From Sipunculus nudus (lineage: Eukaryota > Annelida > Sipuncula > Golfingiida > Sipunculidae), in assembly GCA_026874595.1 (NCBI GenBank), contig CM049311.1:53137676-53201675 (forward strand): a stretch of DNA of 64,000 nt, in the 5' to 3' direction. Positions 2,109-60,810 of this stretch are shown here, one piece after another (position 1 is the first letter of the stretch; each line of letters begins with the position of its first letter). Below the pieces are notes generated by a model that was not told the origin of the DNA, did not search any database, and saw only the letters and a list, made by a program, of their open reading frames with translations. A program made the position numbers and the translations under genes.

Positions 2109-2114
2109 TCTATT

Positions 2115-11389: not shown

Positions 11390-11880
11390 CACTTTCTTTC
11401 CCGCGTGATAACTCAACAACAACATACTGCAGCTTTCCCAAATTCACAGGGATGATTGGTACATATTAGGGCTCCAGACCTATTGAATTACACACCTGTC
11501 AGAAATCCAATGTGGTTGTCACAGCCCAATTTCTGATTTTCTTTCGCGCGGGATAACTCAAAAACAACATACTGCAGCTTTCTCAAATTAACAGTGATGA
11601 TTGGTACATATTAGGGCTCCAGACCTATTGAATTACACACCTGTCAGAAATCCAATGTGGTTGTCACAGCCCAATTTCTGATTTTCTTTCGCGCAGGATA
11701 ACTCAAAACAACATACTGCAGCTTTCTCAAATTAACAGTGATGATTGGTACATATTAGGGCTCCAGACCTATTGAATAACAGACCTGTCCGAATTCAAAT
11801 TTGGCCACAACAGCCCCATTGCTGATTTTCTTTTGTGCGCGATAACTAAACAACAACATACTGTGGTTGCCTTTAAATTG
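11390..11880 (+). repeat. Tandem 145-bp satellite-like monomers
   Basis: GATAACTCA(A)CAACAACATA starts recur at 11407, 11552, 11697 and 11841 (spacing 145, 145, 144). Each is followed by GATGATTGGTACATATTAGG and GCTCCAGACCTATTGAAT. Units two and three are nearly identical, suggesting recent homogenisation. Confidence 0.85.
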
Positions 11881-18872: not shown

Positions 18873-18953
18873 ATGTGGGGACGTCTAACGAATCTGGCAC
18901 AGACTGTGCAAGAGGGGATGGGAGGACTGGTGGAGGAAGAGCAAGGGGAACAG
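18873..18953 (+). CDS. GOLGB1: Exon 1 (residues 1-27)
   Basis: Encodes the N-terminal 27 residues: a short amphipathic-looking segment (MWGRLTNLAQTVQEGMGG) followed by an acidic LVEEEQGEQ tail. It is preceded by an in-frame stop and ends at the donor CAG|GTAAGG, phase 0. The RL..LA..V.E..G spacing is shared with the start of vertebrate giantin. A 30-bp minisatellite begins about 3 nt after the donor. The apparent read-through frames into it are repeat artefacts. Confidence 0.75.
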
Positions 18954-21900
18954 GTAAGGGAGAAAACAGTGAAATGTGTGTCATGGAGGGACAATACAGT
19001 GAATTGTGTGTCATGGAGGGAGAAAACAGTGAAATGTGTGTCATGGAGGGACAATACAGTGAATTGTGTGTCATGGAGGAAGAAAACAGTGAAATGTGTG
19101 TCATGGAAGGAGAATACAGTGAATTGTGTGTCATGGAGGGAGAAAACAGTGAAATGTGTGTCATGGAGGGAGAATACAGTGAATTGTGTGTCATGGAGGG
19201 AGAAAACAGTGAAATGTGTGTCATGGAGGGAGAAAACAGTGAAATGTGTGTCATGGAGGGAGAATACAGTGAATTGTGTGTCATGGAGGGAGAATACAGT
19301 GGAATTTTTTATTTATTTTACATGGATTGTAAAACTAGTTATAATGACTAGTACGAGGCACTCTCCATGGCTTGGATGTTGGCGCTCAGTAGTCGGTAAT
19401 GGAATGTGTGTCATGAAGGGAGAATACAGTGAATTGTGTGTCATGGAGGGAGAATACAGTGAATCGTGTGTCATGGATGGAGAATAAAGTGGATTTTTTT
19501 TTTATTTAAAATAGGATTGTAAAACTAGTTATAATAACTAATACGAGGCACTCTACATGGCTTGGATGTTGGCGCTCAGTAGTGGGTAATGGAATGTGTG
19601 TCATGGAGGGATAATAGTGTGAGATGTGTGTCATGGAGGGAGAATACAGTGAATTGTGTGTCATGGAGGGAGAATACAGTGGAATTTTTTATTTATTTTA
19701 CATGATTTGTAAAACTAGTTATAATAACTAATACGAGGCACTCCCCATGGCTTGGATGTTGGCGCTCAGTAGTTGTTAATGGAATGTGTGTCATGGAGGG
19801 AGAATACTGTAAGATGTGTGTCAAAGAGGGAGAATACAGTGAATTGTGTGTCATGGAGGGAGAATACAGTCTAATATTTTATTTATTTTACATGGATTGT
19901 AAAACTAGTTATAATAACTAATATGAGGCACTCTCCATGGCTTGGATGTTGGCGCTCAGTAGTCGTTAATGGAATGTGTGTCATGGAGGGAGAATACTGT
20001 AAGATGTGTGTCAAAGAGGGAGAATACAGTGAATTGTGTGTCATGGAGGGAGAATACAGTCGAATTTTTTATTTATTTTACATGGATTGTAAAACTAGTT
20101 ATAATAACTAATACGAGGCACTCTCCATGGCTTGGATGTTGGCGCTCAGTAGTCGTTAATGGAATGTGTGTCATGGAGGGAGAATACTGTGAGATGTGTG
20201 TCATGGAGGAAGAATACAGTCAAATGTGTGTCATGAAGGGAGAATACAGTCAAATGTTTGTCATAGAGGGAGAATACAGTAAATATTTTTGTCATAGATG
20301 GATCTGATCTTATGTCAGTGCACCAGTTCTTACCAAGCATTGCCTTTTTATTTTAAATTTATCATAAAATCCAGGAAATCATGTGATGTGATCTAAAAAG
20401 AGAAATTAATTCTCTCTTAATTAAAAATGGAATATCATGTGATTTGTTTGCTTTATATGAGAATTTTTTAAAGTGTAATAATAATGGTATTCTAACTCAA
20501 GTTTGAATTTGTAAAGGAGCATGGATGACCTTGCATTGCATGAGTAAACAGAAGGAAAGGAAATAGTTTGTAATGAACTTTGAAAAAAAAGTATGACTCA
20601 TGGTACAACATATGCCTGTTTTATGTGATATGCAATTTGTTCTATCTCCACATCTCTAATTTACAGTGCATGTGCTGACTGATGAATTCACTGAACAGTG
20701 TTACTGTGTTAGAAAGTTCTGAGAAATTGATTTGGGAGACAATTATTGATGAAATTTGTATATTGCCGGCAGGTATATGGGGAAAATAATGTTACAGTAC
20801 AGGATATTTTTCCTATAAGAAATGATGTAGACCTTGATAATTTGCTGATTGCATCTTTATTAGAAGTGAAAGTAACCACATGAAAGCACTGACAGTCAGC
20901 ATAAGGAGCATTTCTCTATGGTCTTGTAATGTATGGTAACTGTCAAATTGTCCTGTGACATTTACATTGCTTAGTGCATTGAAGACTTGGTGTATGAAAA
21001 CATTTCTGCCCTTGCTTCAGTGCATGCTGACCTTTTAACATTTTTTTAGTGCATGACCCACAGATTATCTGATGGCCAGACAGTTTGACATATGGTGGTC
21101 AGTTATTCACACTTTATTGTATTTGTCGATACAGAATGATACAGAAACAAGTAACTCTGAGGGCCTTAACAGCTACTTGTAATTGTAATGTTTCAAACAC
21201 TCTGAAATCTTAATTTTTTTCCCAGAAGTTATTTGCAGCCTATGTCATGAAATTTGTAGAGCTTATTGGTGTTTGATAAGTGTATACTACTTGTATTACT
21301 GGACAGTTCTTAAATAACAGTTTGAGACAACAGTGAGGTTAGAGTTGTATTCTCTTTACATGGCTGTCCATAAAGACTTGTTTATTATAACTTGATTAAA
21401 AAGTAAATGAAGGATGCTTTATTCTCAGAGACCTGTTAAAACAAACAAACTATACAGTGATTTTCTACAGATCAAAATATACAGAACAGCCTATCAAACT
21501 ATCACCCCAGTTAGTGAAAGTGGAGCTCTTGCATATTTGGTTAACTTTTCATCTGAGCATTTTGAAGTACATAGGTTGAACGGATTAACTTCAAATATGC
21601 CAGTCTTACAGACTGGTTATATTTTGGTTAAGAAAGCATCCCTTCATGTGCTTGCTCATCTTTCTGTCTTTTAACCAAAGGTGCCTTTTTTTTACCTAGG
21701 ATTCTTACCTTAGTCTCTTCCTGGCAAAATCTGCACATGCTTAATGAGTTAAGACTAAGTAGTCACAAGACTTAAAATTTAAAGTATTTTATGCACTTTT
21801 GTGGTGCTTTTGTTGTATAAAGATAAAACCTGGGGCCTTCTTAGCTGTTCTTTCTTTTAATCACAACCGTATTTCCTTGATTAGATGCAAGGCCTTAAAA

Positions 21901-27900: not shown

Positions 27901-30900
27901 AGAATGTTTATATCTCATTAATTGCTTATTTAACTCTAACAGGCATCAACAGTTTCCATTAATAAAATAATTAACAAAATTGCACTACTTTTCCCCACCT
28001 CCGCCATCTTGCCAGTATAACTATCAAGTGGGCGGTTTTGGCGAAACCGAAACCGAAACCAACTCCAGAGGTGGTTTCGCAGTTTGGCTAAAACCAGTTT
28101 CGGTTTCGCTATTAGTAAGTGAATGGTTTCGCTGAACCGAAACAAGTTTCACGCTCTCGAGTGGGGCCTTAGTTCACCACTCACGGCTGACATCTGGTAG
28201 TCAAAGATGAAACTAAAAGTATCCAGTGATAAGCAGCATTAGAGCCTGACAGGAAAAAAAGGAAATGTATATAATACCAAGAGAGGTAAATAATTTTTGG
28301 ACAAAACCTTTACATTTGCAGTAGCCTCACCCTCAGATTTTAAGAACAAGAAAAATTAGTAAAATTTAGTTTGATTGGCCAGTAACAGAATTTTTTGGAT
28401 GAAAATTTCATAACAACAAAAGATCTGATACCAATAATGATGATTTTTTTATCTTTAATTTTAGGAAACCCAGGCTAAGCTATCCAAGACAAAACTGCAG
28501 GCTAAAGGGAAGATCACCAGCCTGACAAAACAACTGGAAGAAGCACAGGCCTTGGCTTCAGATGCTCTTGAAAGGGTAAGTTATGGTCCATATCAGTTTC
28601 ATTGTGGAACTCCGATAACAAATAGATTATTAAGGTCCATATCAGTTTCATTGTGGAACTCGGATAACAAATAGATTATTATGGTCCATATCAGTTTCAT
28701 TGTGGAACTCCGATAACAAATAGATTATTATGGTCCATATCAGTTTCATTGTGGAACTCCGATAACAAATAGATTATGATGGTCCATATCAGTTTAATTG
28801 TGGAACTCTGATAACAAATAGATTATGAAGGTCCAAATAAGACTCATTATGAAACTCCGATAACAAGTAGATTATGAAGGTCCGTAACAGGATCATTGTG
28901 GAACTCCAATAACAATTATATTATGAAGGTCCATATCAGTATCATTGTGGAAATCCGATAACAAATAGAATATGAATGTCCAAATCAGACTCATTGTGAA
29001 ACTCTGATAACAAATAGATTATGAAGGTCCATAACAGAATCATTGTGGAACTCTGATAGCAAATATATTATGGAGGTCCATATCAGTATCATTATGGAAC
29101 TCAAATAACAAATATATTATGGAGGTCCAAATAAGACTCATTGTGGAACCCTGATAACAAATAGTTTATGAAGGTTCAAATCAGACTCATTGTGGAACTC
29201 CAATAACAATAGATTATTAAGGTCCAAATCAGACTCATTGTGAAACTCTGATAACAAATAGATTATGAAGGTCCATTACAGAATCATTGTGGAACTCCAA
29301 TAGCTAATATATTATGGAGGTCCATATCATTATCATTATTAAACTCCGTTAACAAATATATTATGGAGGTCCTTATCAGTATCATTGTGGAACTCTGATA
29401 ACAAATAGAGTATGAAGGGCAAAATCAGACTCATTGTGAAACTCTGATAACAAATAGATTATGAAGGTCAATAACAGAATCATTGTGGAACTCTGATAAC
29501 AAATAGATTATGAAGGTCCAAATCGTGGTCCATTGTCCATCGTCCGTCCGTCTGTCTGTCCGTCTGTCCGGATGTCCGTCCGTAAGACTGGCACGTTTTG
29601 ACACCGTTGGACCTATGAATCTGAAATTGGGTATACAGTTAGATGTCCCCAAAATCTCCTACCATGCCAAAAATTGGGTCAATAGGACGTCGTTCCTTCG
29701 AGATATCTATTTTCACACTTCAGGACTGCCTAATATCAAAACGACTCATCTGGTTTTCTTCATATTTACCATAAATATTCCTCTATATAGTTCCTATGTA
29801 CATGCCAGTTATTAAGTCAGTATTATATAATTTAAAAAAGTTATGGGCCCAAACATAATGGACTTTGTAAAAATATCAGGAAGATATTTGGTCACTTAAG
29901 ACCAAAAATGTTAAAGGTAGGGATTTTTTCCAGTAATACAACTTTAATTAATCAAAATTTAATTGTATACCAAAAATTAGATCAAAATCTGTTAAATTTT
30001 TTTAAATATTGGCAAAAATATAAAATTGGTACCTTCAATTTTGCCAAACTTTGGCCACGGCACGTTTTTTTCCTGTAAGTACTGTGGATTTAATTTTCAC
30101 GGCATGTATACATAAGGATTTAATCTGTTAAAATCTGAAATTTGAAAATAAAAGCTGCAAAATTAGGCTAGTTATTGATTTTTTTTGGAGGCTCTTGTTG
30201 TATTCCCTTACATTGTCAAGCAGTCCACTTTGATGACTGTAGGTCATTCAGTGCACATCTCTATGCTCCCCAGGCTGATTTTATATAATTATAAATATAT
30301 TATGGAGGTCCGTATCAGTATCATTGTGGAACTGCGATAACAAATATATTATGGAGGTCGATATCATTATCATTATGGAACTTCGATAACAAATAAATTT
30401 TGCAGTTCCTTTCAGAATTATTGTAGAACTCTGATAAAAAATAGATTATGCAGGTCCATATCAAAATCATTGTCGATTTAAAAAGGAAATCAGCCTTTAT
30501 CACATCCAAACTTCCAATATTCAGGAAATAGTTTTTATATTAAAATAATTATCAGAACCATTATCTTCCATGTTTGTGACTTTGTAGGAGGAAGATATTG
30601 TTTCATAAGATACGTTATATATTGGATGAAAAATAAATCTGCGCATCATTAAAGTTTTGTCAAAGGATTTTGCAGGTTCATCACTTGTTGATGTAGGTAC
30701 CCTGTGAAAATAAACATGTATTGAAATTTTTGTCTGAATATCAATATTGTGTTTATCATTTCACATAAGCCTGAATCCTGTTACTAAATACTTGAAATCT
30801 AGTAATTAAATGATGAAGAAGGGTAAAGTTTATTGAAAATCCAGTTTGTTTGTAGAAAACCTTTCTTGGGTTTCTAAAGTTCAACTGTAACAAGATGATT

Positions 30901-33900
30901 AAACCCTGCTACTGCCTTTTACAATGACTGTTAAACTACAGGTATTTAGAACATGTATGTTGTGTATCTTAATGTGTTTGTCTGTATCTAACAGGCCTCA
31001 GTGGGATCTGATGAAAGTGTCAGCACTGTCTCCTCTGAGCTTTCATTCATTCAAACTGACCACAAGAGTAGGGCAAAGGTCAAAGTTCTCAAGAAAAAGC
31101 TTGATGACAAAGAAAAACAGCTCTCTGCCAAAGATGACCTGATCGCTAAGAAAGAGAGAGAGGTGGTGATCAAGGAGAAAGTGATCGCAGAGAGAGACGA
31201 GATTGTCAGCCGTTTACAGAGTCAGTTGGAGGAGCAAACTAAATCACTTGAGCAGATGCAGTCAGCCATCACAGCAAGTCAGGGAGAGGGAGAGGGAGAA
31301 GGCACAACTAAGGATGAGGTCTCAGTAAGTGGGGTCTGTGAGGGAGCGGGGGGGGGGGGGGGGGGGGGGTCTTACCCTTAGGGTTGAGGTTACCATAAGT
31401 AGGGTCACTGAGGGAGAGGGAAAAGGAACCCCTAGGGTTCAGGTTACTGTAAGTAGGGTCAGTGAGGGAGAGGGAGAAGGCACCCCTAGGGTTGAGGTAA
31501 TTGTGAGTAGGGGTTCTGAGGGAGAGGGAGAAGGCACCGTTAGGGATGAGGTCTTGTTTAGTAGGGTCAGTGAGGGAGACATAGAGAAGGCCCCCCCTAG
31601 GATAAGGTCACAGTAAGTAGGGTCAGTCAGGGAGAGTGAGAGGGCACCCATAGGGTTGAGGTTACTGTAAGTAGGGTCACAGAGGGAGAGGAAGAAGGCA
31701 CCCTTAGCCATTAGGTCATAGTAAGTAGGGTCAGTTAGGAAGGGGGTAAAGGAACTCCTAGGGTTGAGGTTACTGTTAGTAGGTACACAGAGGGAGAAGG
31801 AACTCCTAGGGTTGAGGTTACTGTTAGTAGGGTCACAGAGGGAGAGGAAGAAGGCACCCTTAGCCATTAGGTCATAGTTTGTAGGGTCAGTTAGGAAGGG
31901 GGTAAAGGCACCCTTAGGGTTGAGGTTACTGTTAGTAGGTACACAGAGGGAGAAGGAACTCCTAGGGTTGAGGTTTCTGTAAGTAGGGTTAGTGAGGAAG
32001 AGGGAGAAGGCACCCCTAGGGATGAGGTAATTGTGAGTAGGGGTTCTGAGGGAGAGGGAGAAGGCACTGTTAGGGATGAGGTCTTGTTTAGTAGGGTCAG
32101 TGAGGGAGACATAGAGAAGTCACCCCCTAGGATAAGGTCACAGTAAGTAGGGACAGTCAGGGAGAGGGAGAAGGCACCCCTAGGGTTGAGGTAATGTAAG
32201 TAGGGTCAGACAGGGAGAAGTCTCCACTAGGGATGAGGTTACAGTAAGTAGAGTCAGTCAGGGAGAGGGAGAAGGCACCTTTAGTTATGAGGTCACAGGA
32301 AGTAGGGTCAGTTAGGGAGAGGGAGAAGGCACCCCTAGGGTTGACGTTACTGAAAGTAGGGTCCGTGACTGAGAGGGAGAAGGCAACCCTAGGGATGAGG
32401 TTCAGTAAATAGGGTCTGTGAGGGAGAGGGTGAAGGCACTGTTAGGGATCAGGTCTTGTTTAGTAGGGTCAGTGAGGGAGACCTAGAGAAGGCACCCCCT
32501 AGGATAAGGTCACGGTAAGTAGGGTCAGTCAGGGAGAGGGAGAAGGCACCCCTAGGGTTGAGGTTACAGTAGGTAGGGTCAGTAAGGGAGAGGGAGAAGC
32601 ACCCTTAGTTATGAGGTCACAGGAAGTAGGGTCAGTCATGGAGAGGGAGAAGCACCCTTAGTTGTGAGGTCACAGGAAGTAGGTCAGTCAGGGAGAGGGA
32701 GAAGCACCCTTAGTTATGAGGTCACAGGAAGTAGGGTCAGTCAGGGAGAGGGAGAAGCACCCTTAGTTATGAGGTCACAGGAAGTAGGGTCAGTCAGGGA
32801 GAGTTAGAAATCACTTGAAAGAATTTTGTCACAGTAAGTAGAGCCAGTCAAGAAGGGCAAGTTCAGCCTTGAAGATGGGGACTTCATCAGTAGGGCAAGC
32901 CATGGAGGAATGAGGGATATGTTAAGCCTGAAGACTAGGTCAAAGTAAGTAGGACCAGCCAGTGAATGGTCCCTGTGTGAAGGGTCCCTGTGTGAAGGGT
33001 CCCTGTGTGAAGGGTTATGTGTGAATATTCACTGTTGGAAGAGTTACTGGTTGAAGGGTCACAATATGAAGGGTTGCTTGGTGAAGGATCACCATATTAA
33101 GGATCACTGTTTGAAGGGTCACTGGTGAACAGTCAGTGTGCGGTCTCTGTGGGAATGGTCACTGTGAACGGTCACTGTGTAAAGGGTCACTGTGTGAAGG
33201 ATCACAGTGTGAAGGGTCACTCTGTGAAGGGTCACTGTATGAAGAGTCACTGTATGAAAGATCAATGTGATGGGTCACTTTGTGATGGATCACTGTTTGA
33301 AGTGTCACTGTGTAAAGGATCACTATTAAAAGGGTCACAGTGTGAAGGGTGACCATGTGAAGGATCAGTGTGAAGGGTCACTATGTGAAGGGTCACTTTT
33401 TGAAGGGTCACTTTGTGAAGGTTATCTGTGTGAAGGGTCAGGGTTTGAAGGGTCACTGTGTGAAGGATCCCTGAACAAAGGGTCACCATTTTGTGAAGGG
33501 TCACCAGCGTCGTACCTAGCCTCATTGCCGCCGGGGCGGTCTTAGAAATTGCCGCCCCTCTAACAAAACATTACAAAACTGGATAACATATTGAAACATA
33601 TCTTTTCAAATGTCCTTGTTACAGGCTTGTATTTGATAACAACGCAATTATATGGATTAATTTGCAGGGAATTCTTCCGCCACATATTAAAGAGCAGGCA
33701 TCTCTTTGCTAATGTAAATCAAAAGATCGCAATTGTAACTATTAACAGATTACACTGCAGGATACGCATATAATGTGGGAAATTGATCTTTCATCATTCA
33801 TGTAAACACGATTCATGATTACTTTATACTCAGCTTGGGAAAAAACTTTATTTTACTTTGTCATATCTATAATTCCACCTCTTGTTATCGCATATGACAG

Positions 33901-51900: not shown

Positions 51901-54900
51901 CAGATAAAACAGCTGATAGCCGCTGGGATTTCATACAAGATTACTCAATATATATACAATCAGGACCTGTCAACGCTTTAGGATGACGCTTCACGTCAAT
52001 ATCAATAGAGAACAGACTTCGTTAAACTATGATACAAAACACCGTACTTATTGTCACCGAGTTTCTGGTGACAGTGCCTCTTTCCCAAATCATATTTTTT
52101 ATCATATATAACAGCTGAGCGCCGTGACCCATGGTTCCCTTTTTTTTAAAGAGACAGAATAATACAAAAACTAAAACAATTTTTAGACAGATTTATAGGG
52201 CTTGTGGTCATCATTTATTTTGTTTACAAACTAACTGGTAGTAGCATTACTGGCACAACCAGGCAAACATAAGCCATTTTAAAACTACAAGCACGTGGAA
52301 TGCAGGTTCCCCAAAACTGAATTCAACATACAGTATTTCTATATTGTATTTACTTCAGGTTCATACTGCACCAGAAATAAAAATAAATTCAGGAACATAT
52401 TCAAAGACTTATTTATTAACTTTTTGTGTACACAATGGGTATGTTTTAAATATGATCTGTTTCCATTTATAGCACATGTGCATAAATATTCTTCATATTG
52501 TGTATGCATTGCAGAATCAGTATTCTGAACACATACATTTAATTTGTTTTCACACTGCATTTATGGGAATAACATATAAATGAATTCTGTATTTTAACCA
52601 CCTCCCAATGTGGTTTCACTGATGTGAATCAAATGTGAATGAATGCTTGTGTAGTGTGAAAAGAACTTGGAATTATAGACAGCAAAGTGGTATTTGATCT
52701 TATATATAGTGAATACAGGGGTAGTGTGTACACGGCTTTATTGTGAATACAGGTACTGGCCCTCTGGTTACCAAAGATGGTCAGATAAGAGACTCAGTGT
52801 TGTTTATGGTTAAACTTATTAGGAGGACTCCATGAGAAGTTGGCAGCCGCTGAAAGAGAAAGGGATACAGCCATACAGGCCAAGGAGGAGCTGGAACAGC
52901 AATTGGCAGGAATACAGACAACAGCTGAGAATGGTAACAAGGTGTGTGGCCTATCCTGAGCATGGGTTGCCTTACTTGTAAATCAATGCTTTATCCCTGG
53001 AGTGCCATTGAGATTTTACTACTGGTACTGGTCAACAGTCTTGCCCCTTGAATAGTTTGTTCATTGTTGTATATTTTTGGGTTCAAAGCAGAGAGAGTCA
53101 GCTGCTATTATTCATTACTATTCTTGCATACCATAAATGGAGGATCATTTTCTGATTTTGTGACTTCACTTTTAATTATATCACATATACAAGAAAACAT
53201 CATGATAATTCAGATGCTTGAAACTTGCTTGAAATCCTCAGTTTTTGCCTTTCCCTAGGTTCAGATATGTTCAACATAGATTTTGGCATCCTGCAAAATA
53301 TTAAATGAAGTCAAGGATAAAACTTATATTATTAGGTCCCATGAATAACAACTTCACTTTAAATATCTGTCACAGTTCTGTGTAACAGTATACTTGAAGA
53401 ATACTGCTTTTTATCAGAGAATTAACCACATCATCCAGGGATTCTGAAGTTCAGTGTTAAACTTGTGAATTTACCATAATAAAGGGGAGATTTTTTTCAA
53501 TTTGTGGGAAATGTATGATTACTTATGCCTAAGTATATATACCAGCCATTTTCTATAACAGCAAATATTGCTAAGTTTCAAAACTGGTGACCTTTACCTT
53601 GATAGCTCAAATCTGCAGGGGGGGGGGAAACATGTTTGAACTTTAATTTTCTTGACATGGTGCCAACAAGTTTTTTTAGAAATAGGCTACAAGGTTGCAT
53701 TACCAGCTTTTTCAAGCCTTCAGAAGATCTGTTTGTTACTTTTCAGTCACTTCAGGATGAAATACAGCAGCTGAAAGACTCACTAAAACACACAGAGGAT
53801 GAGCTGAAAGAGTCCAGAGCCCAGCTGCAGACCATGGCTGATGAGAAGGTCACCCTGGAGGTCAAAATGGCTGAGCTTGAGGAACACAAGGAAGGTAAGA
53901 ATTAGGCTGCACTCCGTCAGTTTGTCATCAGTTATAATGTTACAGAGTAGCATGGTTGTTAAGGCATGTCATCAGTTATAATGTTACAGGATAGCATGGT
54001 GGTTAAGAAATGTCATCAGTTGTAATGGTACAGGGTAGCATGGTGGTTAAGAAATGTCATCAGTTGTAATGGTACAGGGTAGCATGGTGGTTAAGAAATG
54101 TCATCAGTTGTAATGGTACAGGATAGCATGGTGGTTAAGAAATGTCATCAGTTGTAATGGTACAGGGTAGCATGGTGGTTAAGAAATGTCATCAGTTGTA
54201 ATGGTACAGGATAGCATGGTGGTTAAGAAATGTCATCAGTTGTAATGTTACAGGGTAGCATGGTGGTTAAGAAATGTCATCAGTTGTAATGGTACAGGAT
54301 AGCATGGTGGTTAAGGCATGTCATCAGTTGTAATGGTACAGGGTAGCATGGTGGTTAAGGCATGTCATCAGTTATAATGTTACAGGATAGCATGATGGTT
54401 AAGAAATGTCATCAGTTGTAATGGTACAGGATAGCATGGTGGTTAAGGCATGTCATCAGTTATAATGTTACAGGATAGCATGGTGGTTAAGAAATGTCAT
54501 CAGTTGTAATGGTACAGGGTAGCATGGTGGTTAAGAAATGTCATCAGTTGTAATGGTACAGGGTAGCATGGTGGTTAAGAAATGTCATCAGTTGTAATGG
54601 TACAGGATAGCATGGTGGTTAAGAAATGTCATCAGTTGTAATGTTACAGGGTAGCATGGTGGTTAAGAAATGTCATCAGTTGTAATGGTACAGGATAGCA
54701 TGGTGGTTAAGGCATGTCATCAGTTGTAATGGTACAGGATAGCATGGTGGTTAAGAAATGTCATCAGTTGTAATGGTACAGGATAGCATGGTGGTTAAGA
54801 AATGTCATCAGTTGTAATGGTACAGGATAGCATGGTGGTTAAGAAATGTCATCAGTTGTAATGGTACAGGATAGCATGGTGGTTAAGAAATGTCATCAGT

Positions 54901-57900
54901 TGTAATGGTACAGGGTAGCATGGTGGTTAAGAAATGTCATCAGTTGTAATGGTACAGGGTAGCATGGTGGTTAAGAAATGTCATCAGTTGTAATGGTACA
55001 GGGTAGCATGGTGGTTAAGAAATGTCATCAGTTGTAATGGTACAGGATAGCTTGGTGGTTAAGGCATGTCATCAGTTGTAATGGTACAGGGTAGCATGGT
55101 GGTTAAGGCATGTCATCAGTTATAATGTTACAGGATAGCATGGTGGTTAAGGCATGTCATCAGTTGTAATGGTACAGGATAGCATGGTGGTTAAGAAATG
55201 TCATCAGTTGTAATGGTACAGGATAGCATGGTGGTTAAGAAATGTCATCAGTTGTAATGGTACAGGATAGCATGGTGGTTAAGAAATGTCATCAGTTGTA
55301 ATGGTACAGGATAGCATGGTGGTTAAGAAATGTCATCAGTTGTAATGTTACAGGGTAGCATGGTGGTTAAGAAATGTCATCAGTTGTAATGGTACAGGAT
55401 AGCATGGTGGTTAAGGCATGTCATCAGTTGTAATGGTACAGGATAGCATGGTGGTTAAGAAATGTCATCAGTTGTAATGGTACAGGATAGCATGGTGGTT
55501 AAGAAATGTCATCAGTTGTAATGGTACAGGATAGCATGGTGGTTAAGAAATGTCATCAGTTGTAATGGTACAGGATAGCATGGTGGTTAAGAAATGTCAT
55601 CAGTTGTAATGGTACAGGGTAGCATGGTTGTTAAGGCATGTCATCAGTTATAATGTTACAGGATAGCATGGTGGTTAAGGCATGTCATCAGTTGTAATGG
55701 TACAGGATAGCATGGTGGTTAAGGCATGTCATCAGTTGTAATGGTACAGGGTAGCATGGTGGTTAAGAAATGTCATCAGTTGTAATGGTACAGGATAGCA
55801 TGGTGGTTAAGAAATGTCATCAGTTGTAATGATACAGGATAGCATGGTGGTTAAGGCATGTCATCAGTTGTAATGGTACAGGGTAGCATGGTGGTTAAGG
55901 CATGTCATCAGTTGTAATGGTACAGGGTAGCATGGTGGTTAAGAAATGTCATCAGTTGTAATGGTACAGGATAGCATGGTGGTTAAGGCATGTCATCAGT
56001 TGTAATGGTACAGGATAGCATGGTGGTTAAGGCATGTCATCAGTTGTAATGGTACAGGATAACATGGTGGTTAAGGCATGTCATCAGTTGTAATGGTACA
56101 GGATAACATGGTGGTTAAGGCATTGGACTGTAGAAGGGAAACACCACAAAATGAAGAAATGAAGCTGGAACCTCAGACGTTGCTTGAGTGTCTTAAAGAA
56201 CTTCAGATAATCCCTGGCTCTGTGCACCTAAAAACTTTAAATAATATATTCTTATATTATTCTTAATATACATCATAAGGATATGGCCAGTATTAAATAG
56301 TGCCATAGATGGATTCTCTAATGAGAAACTTGGTTTACCACAAGTGTAGCATTCCTTAATACCAAGACACATCGTGCATATATGACATGTCCTGAGACAT
56401 TGTAATAGTTGTAAATTTCTGTACACATTTGCCACTACCAGTTTTATCTCATTTGATTGAAAGTCATCTTAGTTTTTAACAGAACTGGACTTGCATTCTG
56501 TGAGTTTAGGGATAATGGATTGCAATAAGTGAGGATATTTGTATATCATAATTTACAGCAGTGTTTGGCATGAAACTGATTTGCTTATATTAAATTAGTA
56601 TATCAGATTGTGTATATTAGTGACAAACAAGAATGCAATGTTGCTTGAATACTTTGTGCTTTAACAGAATTTAGTGTTTCTGGGTTAACCAATTTGGGAA
56701 AGTATATGCAGAGGGTACAGAATAAAGTTTCCCACAGATTCTTAGTTTATTACAACATCCATGCAGTGACTTGCTTTATTCATGTAGTTTATTACAACAT
56801 CCATGCAGTGACTTGCTTTATTCATGTAGTTTATTACAACATCCATGCAGTGACTTGCTTTATTCATGTAGTTTATTACAACATCCATGCAGTGACTTGC
56901 TTTATTCATGTAGTTTATTACAACATCCATGCAGTGACTTGCTTTATTCATGTAGTTTATTACAACATCCATGCAGTGACTTGCTTTATTTATGTAGTTG
57001 ATTACAACATCCATGCAGTGACTTGCTTTATTCATGTAGTTTATTACAACATCCATGCAGTGACTTGCTTTATTCATGTAGTTGATTACAACATCCATGC
57101 AGTGACTTGCTTTATTTTTGTAGTTGATTACAACATCCATGCAGTGACTTGCTTTATTCATGTAGTTTATTACAACATCCATGCAGTGACTTGCTTTATT
57201 CATGTAGTTTATTACAACATCCATGCAGTGACTTGCTTTATTCATGTAGTTTATTACAACATCCATGCAGTGACTTGCTTTATTCATGTAGTTGATTACA
57301 ACATCCATGCAGTGACTTGCTTTATTCATGTAGTTGATTACAACATCCATGCAGTGACTTGCTTTATTCATGTAGTTTATTACAACATCCATGCAGTGAC
57401 TTGCTTTATTCATGTAGTTTATTACAACATCCATGCAGTGACTTGCTTTATTCATGTAGTTTATTACAACATCCATGCAGTGACTTGCTTTATTCATGTA
57501 GTTTATTACAACATCCATGCAGTGACCTGCTTTATTCATGTAGTTTATTACAACATCCATGCAGTGACCTGCTTTATTCATGTAGTTTATTACAACATCC
57601 ATGCAGTGACTTGCTTTATTCATGTAGTTTATTACAACATCCATGCAGTGACTTGCTTTATTCATGTAGTTTATTACAACGTCCATGCAGTGACTTGCTT
57701 TATTCATGTAGTTTATTACAACATCCATGCAGTGACTTGCTTTATTCATGTAGTTTATTACAACATCCATGCAGTGACTTGCTTTATTCATGTAGTTTAT
57801 TACAACATCCATGCAGTGACTTGCTTTATTCATGTAGTTTATTACAACATCCATGCAGTGACTTGCTTTATTCATGTAGTTTATTACAACATCCATGCAG

Positions 57901-59975
57901 TGACTTGCTTTATTCATGTGCTTTCATCTTTTTTTAGTTTCAGACAAGGAGCAGGTAGAACTGAGAGCTGAAACTGAGCGGCTACGAGAAAAAATTGAAT
58001 ATGAAATGCAGCCAAGTGAGAGAGAAAATGAAGAACTCAGACAACAGGTACTTTATATAATATTAATCCAGATTCATATTCAATAATATACATATGTGTT
58101 TCATTGTATCCCCTGACAATGTTCGGATACTATGGTGTAAGCACAGTAGCGCCACAGCCACGAAACTTTCTTTTGGACACAATATCTAAAAAAATATTTC
58201 ACGGATCTTTACAAAATTTGAAATGTGCATAGATATGGGTGAGAGGACAGAGTCTGTTTAAAATGGGTTCATGACCTTTACTTGGAGAGTGACTTTGACC
58301 TCAAATAGGTCCATTTCTGTGGAAAATTATACAAATTCTTAAATATCTAAAGAAATCTTGCATGGATTGATCCAAAAATTACGTTGACTGAAGATCTTGG
58401 ATAGTGTGATGTCATGTACCGGAAACTGGTGGGGCCACCCATTAACCTTTTCTTATTCTCGTGCCGTTTATTACCCCCATCATTGCCACTTGACAGTACT
58501 GTGAGCATTATAAGTCAAAAATTAATGGACAGATTTCCTCAATATTATGCATACACATATACATGGGTTATCGGATGATCTATATTTAATTTGGGATCAA
58601 GGCCTTTCCTATGAGAGTGGCCTTGACCTTGAATACTGCCATATATGGTGAAAATCACACATAATCATAAATATCTCAATAAGGGATGCATGGATTGGTA
58701 AAAAAAAACAAAGTGACCAAAGATCTTGGATAGCTTTGTCTTCTGCAAAAGGCAGGTGGCACCTCCTTCTGTCCTTTTCTTGTGTTTGCACCTTTTTCAT
58801 ACCCTATCATTGCCACTTGACAGTACTGTGAGCCTTATAAGTCAAAAACTAATGGACAGATTTGGTTAAAATTGTGCATGTCCTTTGATCTTGGATACCT
58901 CATCTTATATTCAAGACTGGTGGTGCCATCTGCAATTGTTTTTGTGTGGTGTCAATATGTACATTTGCTTTCAGTAAAATTACTCATATCTCAAAGGAGG
59001 TTCAAGATATTTGTCTGAAATTTGGCAATTCCATCCATCTTGGAAAGTTTTCTCATAATCCCATGCAGAAGGTGCCACCTACCTTCCAGTTTCTGTAGAA
59101 TAAATTAATGCCATTTCTCAGGAGTGATTTGTCCTAGTGGCCTGAAATTGTGCATATATACATAGATCTGGGACACACCATCTTGTACTCAAGACAGGTG
59201 GCGCCATCTGCAATCCTTTTGGCCTGGTGTCCATCTGTACATGTGCTTTGGGTGAAAATTGCACATATCTCCGGAGTGGTTCAAGGTATTGGTCTTAAAT
59301 TTGGCATGTCCATCTATTTTGGACAATTTTTTCATAAGCCATGCATTTGGCACCGACTTCTAGGTTCCACCTGTGAAATAGCTGTTCTAGTTTTGTTTCA
59401 GGAAAAGTCCATAATATAAGTTGTGCCTAGACTGCAGAGGCACCCCAACCACCTTGTAATAAGAATAGATTTCACCCTGTGGTGAAACACTACACCTTTG
59501 ACTTTGCCACAAGATCCTGGTTTAAGATTTTGTTGTCGTAGTACAAGTTGCGACTTCTGTTAGGAATTTTACAGTATTTTGTCTTCACAAATATTTAATA
59601 TATGTTATTCATTCATATATTTTGATATCTGTTGGTAAAATAAACAAGCATGTGGGATGTACCACGAAGTACATTGTTCAATCTTAGACCATATAAATAA
59701 CACGGATAAAACCACTAAAAATGTCGATGAATGAAATATGGTGATAGGTGGTGATTTGGATGTTAAAACATTTTGTATCACAGCTGTCCTTCAGATAGGA
59801 ATTAAAGTTGGCTATATTACATTAGGTAACAAATTGGAAGAAGCAATGGGAATCTTCAGAACAAGAGAGAGCCAAGCTTCAGAAACATTTGGATGAAGCA
59901 GAGGAAGATATCAATTCTCTCAAGCATAAAATTACAGAGAAAGAAGAAGAAATAGAGAAACTGACCAATGTAGAG
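18873..59975 (+). CDS. GOLGB1: Giantin-like golgin, 11 coding exons, 3' partial (806 codons)
   Basis: Join of 18873-18953, 26826-26957, 28465-28575, 30995-31324, 36722-36880, 44507-45472, 47992-48103, 52823-52941, 53747-53894, 57938-58047 and 59826-59975. All introns are GT-AG, and the 2418 nt read without a stop (intron phases 0,0,0,0,0,0,1,0,1,0). The product is almost entirely charged heptad-type coiled coil. Its N-terminus (MWGRLTNLAQTV...) and residues about 49-98 (QLKEMIRQQ, then KLQAKGKITSLTKQLEE) resemble human giantin as I recall it (ELKDIIRQK, KLHAKAKLTSLNKYIEE). Giantin is a Golgi-rim tether of over 3000 residues anchored by a C-terminal membrane segment. Here only the cytoplasmic N-terminal part is present, and exon 11 ends in a donor, so the gene runs beyond 64000. 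Another golgin or coiled-coil protein is possible, but the N-terminal match favours giantin. Confidence 0.8.
18957..20300 (+). repeat. 30-bp minisatellite with about 189-bp higher-order units, intron 1
   Basis: Unit GAGGGAGAATACAGTGAATT + GTGTGTCATG. Eleven plain units run to about 19300. Then five higher-order units follow, each adding TTTTTATTTATTTTACATG...GGATGTTGGCGCTCAGTAGT (starts near 19305, 19495, 19685, 19872, 20065). The array begins about 3 nt after the exon 1 donor. Because 30 is a multiple of three, long open frames on both strands arise from it; they are not genes. Confidence 0.92.
20310..22215 (+). other. Intron 1, no feature recognised
   Basis: AT-rich unique sequence. No coding exon that would keep the exon 1 to exon 2 phase-0 join and look like coiled coil was found. 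Confidence 0.5.
22216..22750 (+). repeat. Direct duplication, copy 1
   Basis: About 500 bp repeated at 26171-26697 in the same orientation. Shared blocks include GTACATTATCTGTATGTTTT, GTTCAGTTTGCTTTTGGCAC, CACCTGGTGGTGACTGTTAG and AGATGGCAGCACCTGCAGTC. Identity is roughly 85-90% by eye, with small indels. It lies in intron 1, upstream of HINE-like copy A. Confidence 0.88.
23117..26176 (+). mobile_element. HINE/Helentron-like element, copy A (about 3.06 kb)
   Basis: Hairpin AGCTCAG...CTGAGCT at 23120-23148, then a (GTCC/GTCT)n tract at 23165-23235. Two diverged monomers of about 684 bp follow (TAGATGTCCCCAAAATCTCC at 23294 and 23977), with a third partial one near 25640. The 3' end TCAGCTGAGCGCCGTGACCC, then ATGGGTCCCTTGTTTTA, is at 26142-26177 and contains the palindrome GACCCATGGGTC. 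GCTCAGCTGA is inverted between the ends. It encodes no protein. Confidence 0.8.
26171..26697 (+). repeat. Direct duplication, copy 2
   Basis: Partner of 22216-22750. Homology starts within or immediately after the HINE terminus (TTGTTTTA-AAATT) and ends near 26697, about 130 bp before exon 2. It has several small insertions and deletions relative to copy 1. Confidence 0.88.
26826..26957 (+). CDS. GOLGB1: Exon 2 (residues 28-71)
   Basis: Acceptor TTGTTTACAG and donor CAG|GTATTG, 44 codons, phase 0 at both ends. After a short polar linker (EPGTGQTDQ) the first coiled coil begins. It contains the segment EKLVQQLKEMIRQQ, the best match to giantin (human VVELKDIIRQK) in this exon. It was found by joining frames; it is short and has no start codon of its own. 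Confidence 0.8.
27519..28168. mobile_element. 650-bp TIR element (MITE-like), intron 2
   Basis: Left end GGGGGCACTCGAAAATTCGA, then AACTGGTTTCGG. The right end read in reverse is GGCCCCACTCGAGAGCGTGA, then AACTTGTTTCGG. It is flanked by TTAA (27515) and TTAG (28169), a possible decayed TTAA duplication. Subterminal GGTTTCGG/CCGAAACC words recur many times, as in subterminal transposase-binding repeats. It encodes no transposase. Confidence 0.7.
28465..28575 (+). CDS. GOLGB1: Exon 3 (residues 72-108)
   Basis: Acceptor TTTAATTTTAG and donor AGG|GTAAGT, 37 codons, phase 0. It encodes ETQAKLSKTKLQAKGK followed by ITSLTKQLEEAQ. This is the basic-then-leucine pattern K(L)xAKxKxTSLxKxxEE that vertebrate giantin has at the same distance from its N-terminus. 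A 49-bp minisatellite begins five or six bases into the following intron. Confidence 0.82.
28581..29522 (+). repeat. 49-bp minisatellite, intron 3 (first block)
   Basis: About 19 units of GGTCCATATCAGTTTCATTG + TGGAACTCCGATAACAAAT + AGATTATGAA. The first four units are nearly identical and later ones diverge. The array starts five or six bases after the exon 3 donor. It is interrupted by a HINE fragment and resumes at 30288. Confidence 0.92.
29523..30277 (+). mobile_element. Truncated HINE-like fragment (copy D) inside the minisatellite
   Basis: It begins at TCGTGGTCCATTGTCC, right after the position where other copies have the hairpin. It carries the (GTCC/GTCT)n tract and one core monomer, and stops at CTCCCCAGGCTG. 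Both element ends are missing, and minisatellite units lie on each side. The left junction shares GGTCC with the 49-bp unit. Confidence 0.85.
30288..30480 (+). repeat. 49-bp minisatellite, intron 3 (second block)
   Basis: Four degenerate units of the same GGTCCATATCAG...GATAACAAATA repeat after the HINE fragment. The rest of the intron (30481-30994) shows nothing recognisable. Confidence 0.85.
30995..31324 (+). CDS. GOLGB1: Exon 4 (residues 109-218)
   Basis: Acceptor ATCTAACAG and donor TCA|GTAAGT, 110 codons, phase 0. It starts with a Ser-rich, probably unstructured stretch (ASVGSDESVSTVSSE). A strongly charged coiled coil follows (KVKVLKKKLDDKEKQLSAK, then repeated K/E-rich heptads). It ends with a Gly-Glu run (GEGEGEG) and TTKDEVS. 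The last part of the exon together with its donor is the founder of the 54-bp tandem array that fills the start of intron 4. Use of a downstream donor copy could lengthen this exon, but the direct read-through frame meets a stop at 31379-31381. Confidence 0.82.
31325..32960 (+). repeat. 54-bp minisatellite made from exon 4 end plus splice donor
   Basis: Unit GGGAGAGGGAGAAGGCACCC + CTAGGGTTGAGGTTACTGTA + AGTAGGGTCAGTGA. AGTAGGG words fall at 31398, 31452, 31506 and 31560 (spacing 54), later 52-60. The exon 4 tail (GGGAGAGGGAGAAGGCAC, then AAGGATGAGGTCTCA) and its donor GTAAGT align to the unit, so the array copies the exon-intron junction. About eleven further GTAAGT words occur, for example near 31449, 31613, 31667, 31721, 32143 and 32244. 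A higher-order pattern (about 540 bp) is visible. Confidence 0.9.
31348..31369 (+). repeat. G22 homopolymer
   Basis: An uninterrupted run of 22 G begins 23 nt downstream of the exon 4 donor. In RNA it could form a G-quadruplex close to the splice site. The exact length may be affected by sequencing. Confidence 0.85.
32965..33504 (+). repeat. 15-bp minisatellite GGTCACTGTGTGAAG, intron 4
   Basis: More than 30 degenerate units. It adjoins the 54-bp array and is split by the hAT-like element. Open frames on both strands here follow the 15-bp periodicity and are not genes. Confidence 0.88.
33505..35174. mobile_element. Non-autonomous hAT-like DNA transposon (1670 bp)
   Basis: The ends are inverted: left CAGCGTCGTACCTAGCC, right read in reverse CAGTGGCATACCTAAGG. 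The element is flanked by an exact 8-bp duplication AGGGTCAC (33497-33504 and 35175-35182). CAG-type ends and an 8-bp target duplication are hallmarks of hAT elements. The duplication is less informative than usual because the flank is itself a tandem repeat of that word. No transposase frame is seen. Confidence 0.82.
35175..35830 (+). repeat. 26-bp minisatellite, right side of the hAT insertion
   Basis: GATCACTGTGAAGTCACTGT + GCGAAG repeated about 14 times (35190-35570), then 15-bp-type units to about 35830. It is continuous in sequence type with the array left of the hAT element, with a newer 26-bp period. Confidence 0.9.
35831..36721 (+). other. Intron 4 end, no feature recognised
   Basis: Purine-rich then AT-rich sequence with a G9-10 run near 36337. 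No repeat family or exon other than exon 5 was seen. Confidence 0.5.
36722..36880 (+). CDS. GOLGB1: Exon 5 (residues 219-271)
   Basis: Acceptor TTTCTGTATCAG and donor CAG|GTAAGC, 53 codons, phase 0. It encodes coiled coil beginning TKLEEMYAAMVYKDRMLLEL and ending in LSSRNKAIQ. The Tyr-Lys-Asp/Lys-Asp periodicity matches exon 6. There is no recognised domain beyond golgin-type coiled coil. The following intron opens with repeat-free sequence. Confidence 0.8.
37105..38930 (+). mobile_element. Third dispersed repeat family, copy 1 (AGGTCA-rich)
   Basis: It starts near the hairpin TATCCC...GGGATA (37118-37140). It continues with monomers carrying GGTCAAAGGTCAAGGTCACA, GGTGGCGCC-like words and GATTTTGGGGTCATGAGG, with a period of about 300 bp in 37700-38760. 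A related copy lies at 58107-59450. Element ends and class are not resolved; the hairpin start is reminiscent of the HINE family. Confidence 0.55.
38069..38089 (+). repeat. C21 homopolymer
   Basis: Twenty-one consecutive C within the AGGTCA-rich repeat, equivalent to a G21 run on the other strand. Confidence 0.85.
39605..40877 (+). repeat. 67-bp minisatellite, intron 5
   Basis: About 18 units of TATGGACAGGTGGACAGTGT + AGTCTCTGTTTGTTCAATAT + GTTCTGCATGTTTCAGTATG + GTCTCAG (unit starts at 39652, 39719, 39786). Most are nearly identical; two units have TCTCTCCAT in place of AGTCTCTGT. Decayed units occur before (38990-39110) and after the adjoining CTAG element (43435-43740), so the array was once longer. 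Confidence 0.93.
42018..42066. repeat. Cluster of five TCTAGA palindromes
   Basis: TCTAGA starts at 42019, 42027, 42040, 42048 and 42061. It includes the perfect 16-bp palindrome GTCTAGACGTCTAGAC (42039-42054). No function is assigned. Confidence 0.85.
42230..42990 (+). repeat. 278-bp tandem repeat with AGGTGGCGCCACCT palindromes
   Basis: TC(G/A)GGAACTGTTTGACC-type unit starts are near 42257, 42535 and 42814. Each unit is a dimer of two related halves. The 14-bp perfect palindrome AGGTGGCGCCACCT occurs at 42486-42499 and 42762-42775, with imperfect versions at the half-unit positions. Confidence 0.82.
43435..44506 (+). other. Intron 5 end: decayed minisatellite and (ATT)n
   Basis: Degenerate 67-bp-type units run to about 43740, then AT-rich sequence and an (ATT)n run at 44449-44468 just before exon 6. 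A weak open frame on the minus strand (43907-44200) was seen but not assigned. Confidence 0.5.
44507..45472 (+). CDS. GOLGB1: Exon 6, the largest coding exon (residues 272-593)
   Basis: Acceptor GATATTTTACAG and donor CAG|GTAGGT, 322 codons open throughout, phase 0. It is almost pure coiled coil rich in Q, E, K and L. Heptads such as KDKKLKDQTVTLKQMTSKLQ begin it, and a Gln-rich middle (KQQLETQLQQ) follows. Near the end is a short helix-breaking linker rich in D, G, K and P (SGTKADGDAKPKESDG), then KYKAQATAKIKALERQIADL. That last motif resembles the Lys/Ala heads that recur before coiled-coil blocks in giantin. Its base composition is clearly more GC-rich than the flanking introns. Confidence 0.88.
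45473..47991 (+). other. Intron 6, no clear feature
   Basis: AT-rich unique sequence. 46680-46870 has weak similarity to the copy G monomers (AAAACCTGATTTTTTGCA). No exon or element ends were recognised. Confidence 0.5.
47992..48103 (+). CDS. GOLGB1: Exon 7 (residues 594-631, phase 0 to 1)
   Basis: Acceptor GGTTTCCTGCAG and donor CAAG|GTATGC, 112 nt. It encodes AHTDNGDGLQNQIAELEDEK followed by a leucine-heptad segment NLQLRIVELEGALNGQ. The extra base G is completed by GA at the start of exon 8 (Gly), which supports pairing with 52823. Confidence 0.8.
48594..52147 (+). mobile_element. HINE/Helentron-like element, copy B, with inner insertion
   Basis: Hairpin AGCTCAG...CTGAGCT at 48598-48626, (GTCC/GTCT)n at 48645-48725, and core monomers at 48781 and 49464 (spacing 683). 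The 3' end CAGCTGAGCGCCGTGACCCA is at 52112-52131, then TGGTTCCCTTTTTTTT. The segment 50874-52073 inside is compositionally different. The element lies in intron 7. Confidence 0.78.
50874..52073. mobile_element. CpG-richer 1200-bp insert, possibly a solo LTR
   Basis: The ends are TGTCTCCAA... and ...CTGGTGACA, i.e. TG...CA with weak inverted similarity. The right end folds as TGTCACC (8-nt loop) GGTGACA at 52052-52073. In the minus orientation there is a TATA-like word and AATAAA-type words near the far end. CpG is much commoner than in the surrounding element. No clean target duplication was found; CCTCTTCCC and CCTCTTTCCC near the two edges are only approximate. Confidence 0.4.
52148..52822 (+). 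other. Intron 7 end, no feature recognised
   Basis: AT-rich sequence between HINE copy B and exon 8. Intron 8 (52942-53746) likewise shows nothing except a G9 run near 53620. Confidence 0.5.
52823..52941 (+). CDS. GOLGB1: Exon 8 (residues 631-670, phase 1 to 0)
   Basis: Acceptor AACTTATTAG and donor AAG|GTGTGT, 119 nt. It encodes GGLHEKLAAAERERDTAIQ, then a Glu/Gln-rich heptad stretch ending TTAENGNK. The exon phase fits exon 7 exactly. The polypyrimidine tract before the acceptor is weak. Confidence 0.78.
53747..53894 (+). CDS. GOLGB1: Exon 9 (residues 671-720, phase 0 to 1)
   Basis: Acceptor GTTACTTTTCAG and donor GAAG|GTAAGA, 148 nt. It encodes coiled coil SLQDEIQQLKDSLKHTEDEL followed by a further Glu/Leu heptad block ending EEHKE. 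A 44-bp minisatellite starts about 28 nt beyond the donor. Confidence 0.82.
53922..56125 (+). repeat. 44-bp minisatellite with tRNA-like core, intron 9
   Basis: About 50 units of CATCAGTTGTAATGGTACAG + GATAGCATGGTGGTTAAGAA + ATGT, with two-state variant positions (AGAAATG/AGGCATG, GGTAGC/GATAGC, GGTAC/GTTAC). ACAGGATAGCATGGTGGTTA + AGGC aligns with the acceptor-stem and D-arm region of eukaryotic tRNA-Leu/Ser (GGATGGCCGAGTGGT...AAGGC). TAGCATGGTGG is one base off the Pol III A-box consensus. After the last unit the sequence continues GGCATTGGACTGTAGAAGGG, again tRNA-like, but no B box is seen. Confidence 0.9.
56126..56743 (+). other. Spacer between the two intron 9 minisatellites
   Basis: It opens with a tRNA-like continuation (ATTGGACTGTAGAAGGG) that may be the remnant of the SINE or tRNA-derived sequence that founded the 44-bp array. 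The rest is AT-rich with no recognised feature. Confidence 0.5.
56744..57919 (+). repeat. 42-bp minisatellite, 28 units, end of intron 9
   Basis: AGTTTATTACAACATCCATG + CAGTGACTTGCTTTATTCAT + GT repeated 28 times (1176 bp), nearly perfect, with only a few substitutions (GTTGAT, TTATTTATG, ACCTGC, AACGTCC). The unit is 14 codons, so long open frames exist on both strands (about 425 and 391 codons). They are pure repeat and are not called as genes. The array ends 18 nt before the exon 10 acceptor. Confidence 0.95.
57938..58047 (+). CDS. GOLGB1: Exon 10 (residues 720-756, phase 1 to 0)
   Basis: Acceptor CATCTTTTTTTAG and donor CAG|GTACTT, 110 nt. It encodes SDKEQVELRAETERLREKI and continues into EYEMQPSERENEELRQQ. 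A second in-frame AG six bases downstream (TTTCAG at 57938-57943) would drop two residues, so alternative acceptor use is possible. A 42-bp minisatellite ends only 18 nt before the acceptor. Confidence 0.8.
58107..59450 (+). mobile_element. Third dispersed repeat family, copy 2, intron 10
   Basis: TATCCCCTGAC...GGATACTATGGTG at 58107-58133 matches the start of the copy at 37118. The following monomers share GACCTTTAC...GAGAGTGACTTTGACCT, ACTTGACAGTACTGTGAGCA and GGTGGCGCCATCTGCAATC. The ends are unclear. Confidence 0.55.
59826..59975 (+). CDS. GOLGB1: Exon 11 (residues 757-806), last one in the window
   Basis: Acceptor GCTATATTACATTAG and donor GAG|GTCAGT, 50 codons, phase 0. It encodes VTNWKKQWESSEQERAKLQK followed by coiled coil rich in E and K (EEEIEKLTNVE). 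The donor has C at +3, which is unusual, so the exact 3' edge is less certain than for the others. No further convincing coding exon was found in 59976-64000. Confidence 0.75.
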
Positions 59976-60104: not shown

Positions 60105-60810
60105 TATCCAAATTCACAGGGGTGATTGGTACATATGAGGTTTCCAGACCTATTGCATTACACACCTGTCTGAATTCTAATATGGCCGCCACAACGCAAT
60201 CGCTGATTTTCTTTTGTGCGCAATAACTCAACAACAAAATATTTCAGCTTTCCCAAATTCACAGAGATGATAGGTACCTATGAGTGCTCCGGACCTTTTG
60301 AATTACGGACCTGTCGGAATTCCAGTATGGCCACCCATGCCAAATTGCTGATTTTCTTTTGTGCATGATAACTCAACAACAACATACTTCAGCTTTCCCG
60401 AATTCCCAAGGATGATTGGTACATATGAGGGCTCCAGACCTATCAAATTACAGACCTTTGAAAAAGGGGTGCCCAGTTGTAATCATCGTGTCTGTCTGTC
60501 CATCCGTGAGTGACGCTTTCTTTAAAACGTGATATCCCAAAGAGAATAAGATGGATCTTTCTCAAATCCACAGGGATGATTGTTGCCTAAGATGGCTCCG
60601 TCCCTATTGAATTTCAGACCTGCCAAAAATTTAATATGGATGCCAGAGCACAATTAGTGATTTTCTGGTGCTTGCGATATCCCAAAGAGATTATGTTTCA
60701 TCTTTCTGAAATTCACAGGGATGATTGTTGCTAGTTGCAAGGAGGGCTCCGTCCTTGTCAATTTTCAGACCTGCCAAAAATTCAATATGGCTGCCAGACC
60801 ACAATCAGTG
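60105..60810 (+). repeat. 145-bp monomers and a head of the CTAG family, intron 11
   Basis: Units with TTCACAGGGGTGATTGGTAC, TCCAGACCTATTGCATTAC and ATAACTCAACAACAA recur from about 60105. A head-like piece (TTGAAAAAGGGGTGCCCAGT...GTGTCTGTCTGTCC) lies at 60450-60510. The block is cut by HINE copy C at about 60811. Confidence 0.75.

Follow-up and report, generated by a model that had tools for sequence, protein, structure and literature searches.

Minisatellite arrays at the splice junctions of a giantin-like gene and of other genes in Sipunculus nudus

Studies of amphioxus described "mirages", minisatellites that span intron-exon boundaries, in Adh3, globins, troponin C, and PGBD5; they occur at 5' or 3' sites and have units of 10-160 bp, and AG/GT signals recur in their many copies, of which the gene relies on the authentic one next to the exon (PMC3087553; PMC3902484). 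Mirages are further characterized by instability of length between haplotypes or cells. RT-PCR suggests that normal splicing continues in amphioxus despite the boundary repeats, and it has been proposed that new introns could be made from such repeats (PMC3087553). That introns may be gained when segments are duplicated in tandem has been discussed before (Rogers 1989; Zhuo et al. 2007; both as cited in PMC3087553), and the available parts of other reports attribute introns to tandem duplications or arrays in Drosophila (PMC2891723) and potato (PMC4974935). In human segmental duplications, variable internal tandem repeats lie at exon-intron boundaries and can be spliced out (PMC2812944). A C. 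elegans minisatellite near alternative exons was considered as a parallel and, on the accessible portion of the paper, set aside as a different matter (PMC4039745). Among the open papers in the matches listed, judged by title and start of abstract, none gave a many-gene count of tandem arrays against splice sites or described arrays that abut a junction. The pattern is little studied and was previously described from single lancelet genes; here we describe it across several unrelated genes.

The window analyzed here is a stretch of 64,000 nt (C6:53137676-53201675 within the 1.43-Gb genome). It contains the first eleven exons (E1-E11) of a coiled-coil gene that runs on the + strand from 18873. 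We call this gene giantin-like, a putative label based on a resemblance and on a very large exon; as to a relationship with giantin (GOLGB1), Pfam gave two matches on the gene, both below the cut-off. In the rebuilt gene model introns 1-10 are complete, all ten are bounded by GT-AG, and 806 codons are open. Past the end of the window the gene continues with an open coding stretch of ~10.3 kb at 68887-79221, in window-frame coordinates (L001-L002), that is probably a single exon, and further exons probably lie near 83.2k and 85.2k. The features that matter below are as follows, with a slash marking the splice junction.

18873..18953, + strand: exon 1 of the giantin-like gene, with the start codon; donor CAG/gtaagg
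18957..20284, + strand: intron 1 array, 30-bp unit with a 190-bp higher-order form downstream; starts at +3 from the donor (TRF)
28465..28575, + strand: exon 3; donor AGG/gtaagt
28581..29524, + strand: intron 3 array, 49-bp unit, 19 copies; unit recognizable from +5, TRF start 28585 (+9)
30995..31324, + strand: exon 4; copy one of the intron 4 unit occupies its last 39 nt (31286-31324)
31286..32803, + strand: junction-spanning array of intron 4, 54-bp unit, repeated about 27 times within intron 4, so that copies of the exon end and donor run on into the intron
32962..33486, + strand: interior array of intron 4, away from the junctions, 15-bp GTGAAGGGTCACTGT type (TRF)
35175..35814, + strand: interior array of intron 4, away from the junctions, 26-bp unit similar to that of 32962-33486 (TRF)
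39646..40872, + strand: interior array of intron 5, strong and a counter-example, 67-bp unit, 18 copies, 2.8 kb from the donor (TRF)
53747..53894, + strand: exon 9; donor AAG/gtaaga
53923..56119, + strand: donor-side array of intron 9, 44-bp unit, 50 copies; starts at +28 (TRF)
56743..57919, + strand: acceptor-side array of intron 9, with 28 copies of a 42-bp unit; its end lies 18 nt short of the acceptor (TRF)
57938..58047, + strand: exon 10 of the giantin-like gene

Five arrays found by TRF touch splice junctions, at the donors of introns 1, 3, 4, and 9 and also at the acceptor of intron 9, and the rebuilt model agrees with the preliminary description on each. Its offsets of +3 for intron 1, +28 for intron 9, and 18 nt before the intron 9 acceptor were reproduced, while its +5 for intron 3 holds for the recognizable unit and becomes +9 by TRF. 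It had also described the units of different introns as unrelated in sequence, and so they appear by eye. Across introns 1-10 (38,685 nt) there are 13 arrays with a TRF score of at least 100, four of which end within 30 nt of a junction by TRF's own ends (five with intron 4 realigned); the binomial P for 4/13 is 0.002, in a gene that was chosen because of this look. The interior arrays of these introns number eight, among them 30293-30473, which has been separated from the intron 3 array and belongs to it. In the later part of the gene (the next 30 kb, L001-L003), where exon ends are rough, no TRF array lay within 100 nt of the 10.3-kb exon, the stretches near 83.2k and 85.2k, or the exon 11 donor.

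Only the intron 4 array, among these five, spans its junction. The alignment of its 54-bp unit takes in 39 nt of exon 4 together with the GTAAGT donor, and 0 of 1000 shuffles aligned as well, which upholds the earlier statement that the unit contains the donor itself. By TRF this array begins only at +49, past 22 consecutive G, but the alignment of the unit begins at 31286. The spanning array takes up ~1.5 kb of an intron of 5397 nt; the donor G is kept in 0.96 and the donor T in 0.78 of its copies, and nine exact GTAAGT occur in the diverged copies between 31326 and 32803. Read-through from exon 4 meets a stop 18 codons beyond the exon. The 22-G run itself (31348-31369, inside the array) is hard to sequence and a likely spot for assembly error. 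We found no hidden junction-spanning units in introns 1 and 3 or at either end of intron 9, where the unit was no more similar to the flank and exon end than shuffled sequences were (P = 0.29, 0.91, 0.64, and 0.52). Since the arrays of introns 1, 3, and 9 only abut their junctions, they are not classed as mirages.

Intron 4, in contrast, fits the description of a mirage in its sequence, in that its unit spans the exon 4/intron boundary and its intron-side copies carry splice signals. The comparison with amphioxus differs in other respects: the work there concerned single genes, whereas here another animal and 430 exon edges are considered and abutting arrays are in excess as well; and splicing was assessed there by RT-PCR, whereas ours is an argument about reading frame made from sequence alone. 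As far as the accessible portions of the reports on intron gain go, these cases resemble ours in that a segment carrying a splice signal is duplicated in tandem and its copies end up in an intron, but in them the repeat gives rise to a new intron, whereas here the repeat lies at the junction of an existing exon (our sample consists of conserved-domain exons). The human segmental duplications differ in being recent paralogs with changed gene structure, and the available part of that report does not mention that array ends are overrepresented at ordinary junctions (PMC2812944).

Several other repeats were observed in and around the gene. The intron 3 array (28585-30473) is interrupted by ~770 bp of other sequence at 29525-30292, which contains a CCGTC-rich stretch like others in the window and looks like a later insertion. 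The two intron 4 arrays of GTGAAGGGTCACTGT type lie ~1.7 kb apart, as though one array had been split. Tandem repeats of ~145-151 bp with a similar consensus occur at 11393-11863, 40974-41237, 60108-60457, and 60531-60815, and this recurrence in and around the gene suggests a dispersed family rather than a minisatellite of local origin. A ~337-bp tandem repeat of similar consensus likewise recurs, at 2105-3051 and, in window-frame coordinates, at 65023-65870 (L001) and 85845-87364 (L003). At 14596-15001 and 15011-15173, arrays of a 69-bp unit are adjacent in opposite orientation and form a large inverted repeat of minisatellites. A search with the intron 1 unit gave eight matches, all in its own array, so that it was rejected as a family spread by transposition.

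Arrays were then counted at exon edges in other genes. Exons were taken from Pfam matches to the myosin head (75 of 75 rows), kinesin (70 of 126), and DHC_N2 of dynein (70 of 84), the rows being picked by rank together with those inside merged regions; one kinesin row with 15 internal stops was dropped. This gave 215 hits and 430 edges in 137 regions, with ~500 nt on either side, in which arrays were found by TRF. Each array was counted once, at its nearest junction, as near (-60 to +30 nt) or far (30-500 nt), and the expected number near was calculated from the far rate; the +30 limit is that of the preliminary description, and the -60 limit and the score cuts were set after the first list. 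Junctions were called within reach of the hit end with a splice consensus; some hit ends may be domain ends within an exon and not junctions, and far-array distances may err by tens of nucleotides since only 99 of 214 donors score well. Seventeen junctions next to arrays were corrected by eye; the uncorrected calls had already placed these arrays at -30 to +29.

Results showed that arrays of score at least 100 were near junctions in 19 cases and far in 20, where 4.6 were expected near (4.1x, P = 2e-5); two loci, L073 and L116, contribute one near and one far array each through TRF splitting, and L051/L052 and L116/L133 share a gene or intron. All arrays with a period of at least 10 gave 21 near and 33 far against 7.6 expected near (2.8x, P = 4e-4), and strong arrays (period at least 15, at least 2.5 copies, score at least 150) gave 13 near and 10 far against 2.3 (5.6x, P = 6e-5). 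The strong arrays pointed in one direction in all three families, with 5, 4, and 4 near in myosin, kinesin, and dynein (7.6x, 4.6x, and 5.0x); for all arrays in dynein alone the enrichment was 1.8x (P = 0.16). The 19 near arrays were divided between donors (10) and acceptors (9), and the peak was sharp: 11 ends of arrays of score at least 100 fell in -60 to 0 against 3.1 expected and 8 in 0 to 30 against 1.5, and, per 30 nt, 11 fell at -30 to 0, 8 at 0 to 30, and then 3, 3, 1, and 2. An excess near splice sites is thus present beyond one gene, so that the refutation named in the preliminary description, a lack of such an excess, does not hold in this sample, and 19-21 of the 430 edges (4-5%) carry a junction array. 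The giantin-like gene shows this general pattern at high density.

By reading, units that include the splice site and exon sequence were recognized at the donors of L028 (CTGACAG/GTCAGT, about 14 copies), L033, L044, L045, L117, and L125 and at the acceptors of L012, L073, L100, L104, and L116; the boundary-spanning units beyond intron 4, also judged by reading and without a statistic, are those of L012, L028, L033, L045, L100, L104, L116, L117, and L125. Arrays that only abut their junction, again by reading, include L065, L081, L095, L126, L127, L132, and L134. A 58-bp unit is common to the acceptor side of L116 and the donor side of L133, at neighboring dynein exons (C9:46723332-46728251), and therefore the array may fill much of the intervening intron. 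In a myosin gene at C2:44848559-44852248 (L026, L053), five nearby hits to the profile at ~109-204 all lie over 122-152 or close to it, possibly a cluster of mutually exclusive exons.

Since many junction arrays contain the exon end and the splice site, their intron-side copies are decoy splice sites. Intact splice sites occur in intron copies, and in L028, L104, and L117 some are identical to the real site over 12 nt. Over ten spanning arrays, no selection on the decoys was found in either direction, the splice dinucleotide being kept at 0.909 and the other columns at 0.900 (P = 0.77). Ten arrays were tried and in eight of them the next decoy was clear; splicing at it would change the reading frame or introduce a stop in six of these eight, the exceptions being L033 and L104. 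Considering that the decoys decay neutrally and that their use would in most cases damage the frame, the copies look neutral and must be mostly ignored.

The association was also approached from the arrays. We searched the genome for three CAGGTAAGT spaced 20-50 nt, with one reversed motif as the sole control, and obtained 329 matches against 132 for the reversed motif; single motifs numbered 15,335 and 12,947, respectively. Among the matches listed, which extend from C1 to C7:75.0M (662 Mb), there were 18 separate arrays of the tripled CAGGTAAGT and 4 of the reversed motif (P = 0.007). Upstream ends were examined for the 18 donor-motif arrays among the matches listed and for 9 control arrays, and were in view in 16 and 7 of them; for L151 the start was placed at the first motif, as no TRF array reached its end. 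Coding potential was scored with a codon model trained on the 215 sample exons, which, tested on those same exons, passes 91% of donors and, by design, 5% of intron positions. A coding stretch ended at a GT in the first unit or within 60 nt of it in 11 of 16 donor-motif arrays and in 1 of 7 controls (Fisher P = 0.024). By a stricter criterion the GT belonged to CAG/GTAAGT or CAG/GTATGT in 9 of 16, a figure that has no fair control because reversed-motif arrays lack the donor motif. Ten translations upstream of donor-motif arrays were compared with Pfam: one contained a thioredoxin domain above the cut-off, three gave weak matches below it, and six gave no match. The array-first result agrees with the excess of array ends in other genes, and together they sustain the earlier suggestion that arrays have arisen repeatedly and independently at exon edges.

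Enrichment at junctions rose with copy number. For arrays with a period of at least 15 and a TRF score of at least 30, it was 1.3x below 2.5 copies (5 near, 17 far; 3.9 expected near), 3.2x at 2.5-5 copies (8 near, 11 far), and 6.1x at 5 copies or more (7 near, 5 far), so that arrays of at least 2.5 copies end at junctions 3-6 times above chance. Two-copy repeats of high identity and a period of at least 25 leaned to junctions (4 against 1.4 expected, P = 0.10). On C1-C4, among the matches listed, the donor motif had 15 loci with only two adjacent copies and 12 with at least three, as against 13 and 3 for its reversal; this contrast is weak (one-sided Fisher P = 0.08), and because at least three of the control doubles look like members of dispersed families, their removal would raise the donor excess for doubles and weaken it further. 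Unit periods were mixed, by eye, as to whether they are multiples of three. Two simple causes were rejected. The last 40 nt of exons have a G+C content of 46% against 32-35% in introns, yet the units of junction arrays are not richer in G+C than others (in this comparison L051 and L073, each having a junction array as well as another, are both counted as far). Shelter from transposons fails since the cover by dispersed repeats (those with a second copy in 0.3 Mb) is 1-3% over the first 150 nt and reaches 9% only at 400-500 nt, rising too slowly to account for a peak of 30 nt.

The explanation that we tentatively prefer, though we give it somewhat less than an even chance, is that duplications are neutral and that arrays survive better where they border an edge under selection. 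Tandem duplications, about 30-90 bp in length, would arise roughly evenly along genes, and those that touch or span a splice junction would be unusually likely to persist and expand. Since the exon-proximal copy would stay in use by the spliceosome, spanning duplications should be harmless. A deletion that removed the whole of a junction array would also take the splice site or exon and be rejected by selection, whereas an array deep in an intron could vanish whole; because such deletions would be rejected, arrays at edges may survive long enough to expand. Differential survival of this kind would explain why enrichment increases with copy number, why the decoys are neutral, why donors and acceptors are alike, and why the peak is sharp, and the proposal in the preliminary description that selection protects the exon side is supported in part. 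Shielding from deletion, which we infer, would make arrays older at edges, and it counts against this that the identity of their units is no lower (mean 88.0% near and 83.8% far, P = 0.28). The lean of high-identity two-copy repeats to junctions and the flat to slightly reduced cover by arrays near exons also speak against differential survival.

That junction arrays are no more diverged than others is also what would be expected if exon-intron junctions were hotspots of tandem duplication, e.g., because polymerases pause, R-loops form, or DNA breaks at splice sites, a bias of formation that we consider rather unlikely as the principal cause. The sharpness of the peak of array ends fits such hotspots, as does the slow rise with distance of dispersed-repeat cover, a proxy for turnover. 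However, two-copy arrays, at 5 seen and 3.9 expected, are barely enriched, though the high-identity subset leans to junctions, the double-only loci are nearly equal in number for the two motifs among the matches listed, and the similar numbers at donors and acceptors call for a mechanism common to both. Slippage guided by splice sites or R-loops, which had been suggested from the giantin-like gene, is on these counts not borne out as the main cause, many-copy arrays being enriched and two-copy repeats not clearly so; a modest bias of formation may act alongside survival. We are more doubtful still of the strongest statement of the pattern, by which splice junctions in this genome are active sites of the birth or growth of tandem repeats, about 1 in 20 bearing a minisatellite that often repeats the junction's splice site intact many times over, and position beside the exon is all that lets the spliceosome distinguish the true site from its copies.

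An effect of the exon as a barrier, by which arrays cover introns evenly and are merely cut off at exons so that their ends pile up there, seems improbable to us. It is favored by the cover of tandem arrays, which stays level or declines toward exons (3.4% at 0-20 nt from the exon, then 4.4%, 4.8%, and 5.4%, up to 6.7% at 400-500 nt), and therefore the excess is one of array ends and not of array DNA. Nevertheless, even seeding at the far rate predicts, for units of 45-65 bp, a cover of 1.1-1.5% beside the junction against the 3.4% seen; an array that grows from its own seed should keep its outer end at that seed; and the exon-containing units of intron 4 and of the nine boundary-spanning loci named above could not be produced by clipping. 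Least probable is that the extra splice-site copies have a function, in aiding splicing, guarding long introns against early polyadenylation, or permitting alternative exons, for while intact sites do persist in intron copies, the decoy dinucleotides are kept no better than other positions, use of the nearest decoy mostly breaks the frame or adds a stop, and four abutting arrays of the giantin-like gene have no trace of the junction in their unit.

Under neutral duplication with survival at selected edges, the positions of arrays in genes are suggested to be shaped by what deletions selection permits, and "hotspots" at functional edges need no special mutation mechanism. Junction arrays also bear on the growth and gain of introns. 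If the rate seen in our sample holds genome-wide, at very many junctions one site in use would naturally compete with several unused sites that are nearly identical and lie at fixed spacing, which would offer a direct test of exon definition.
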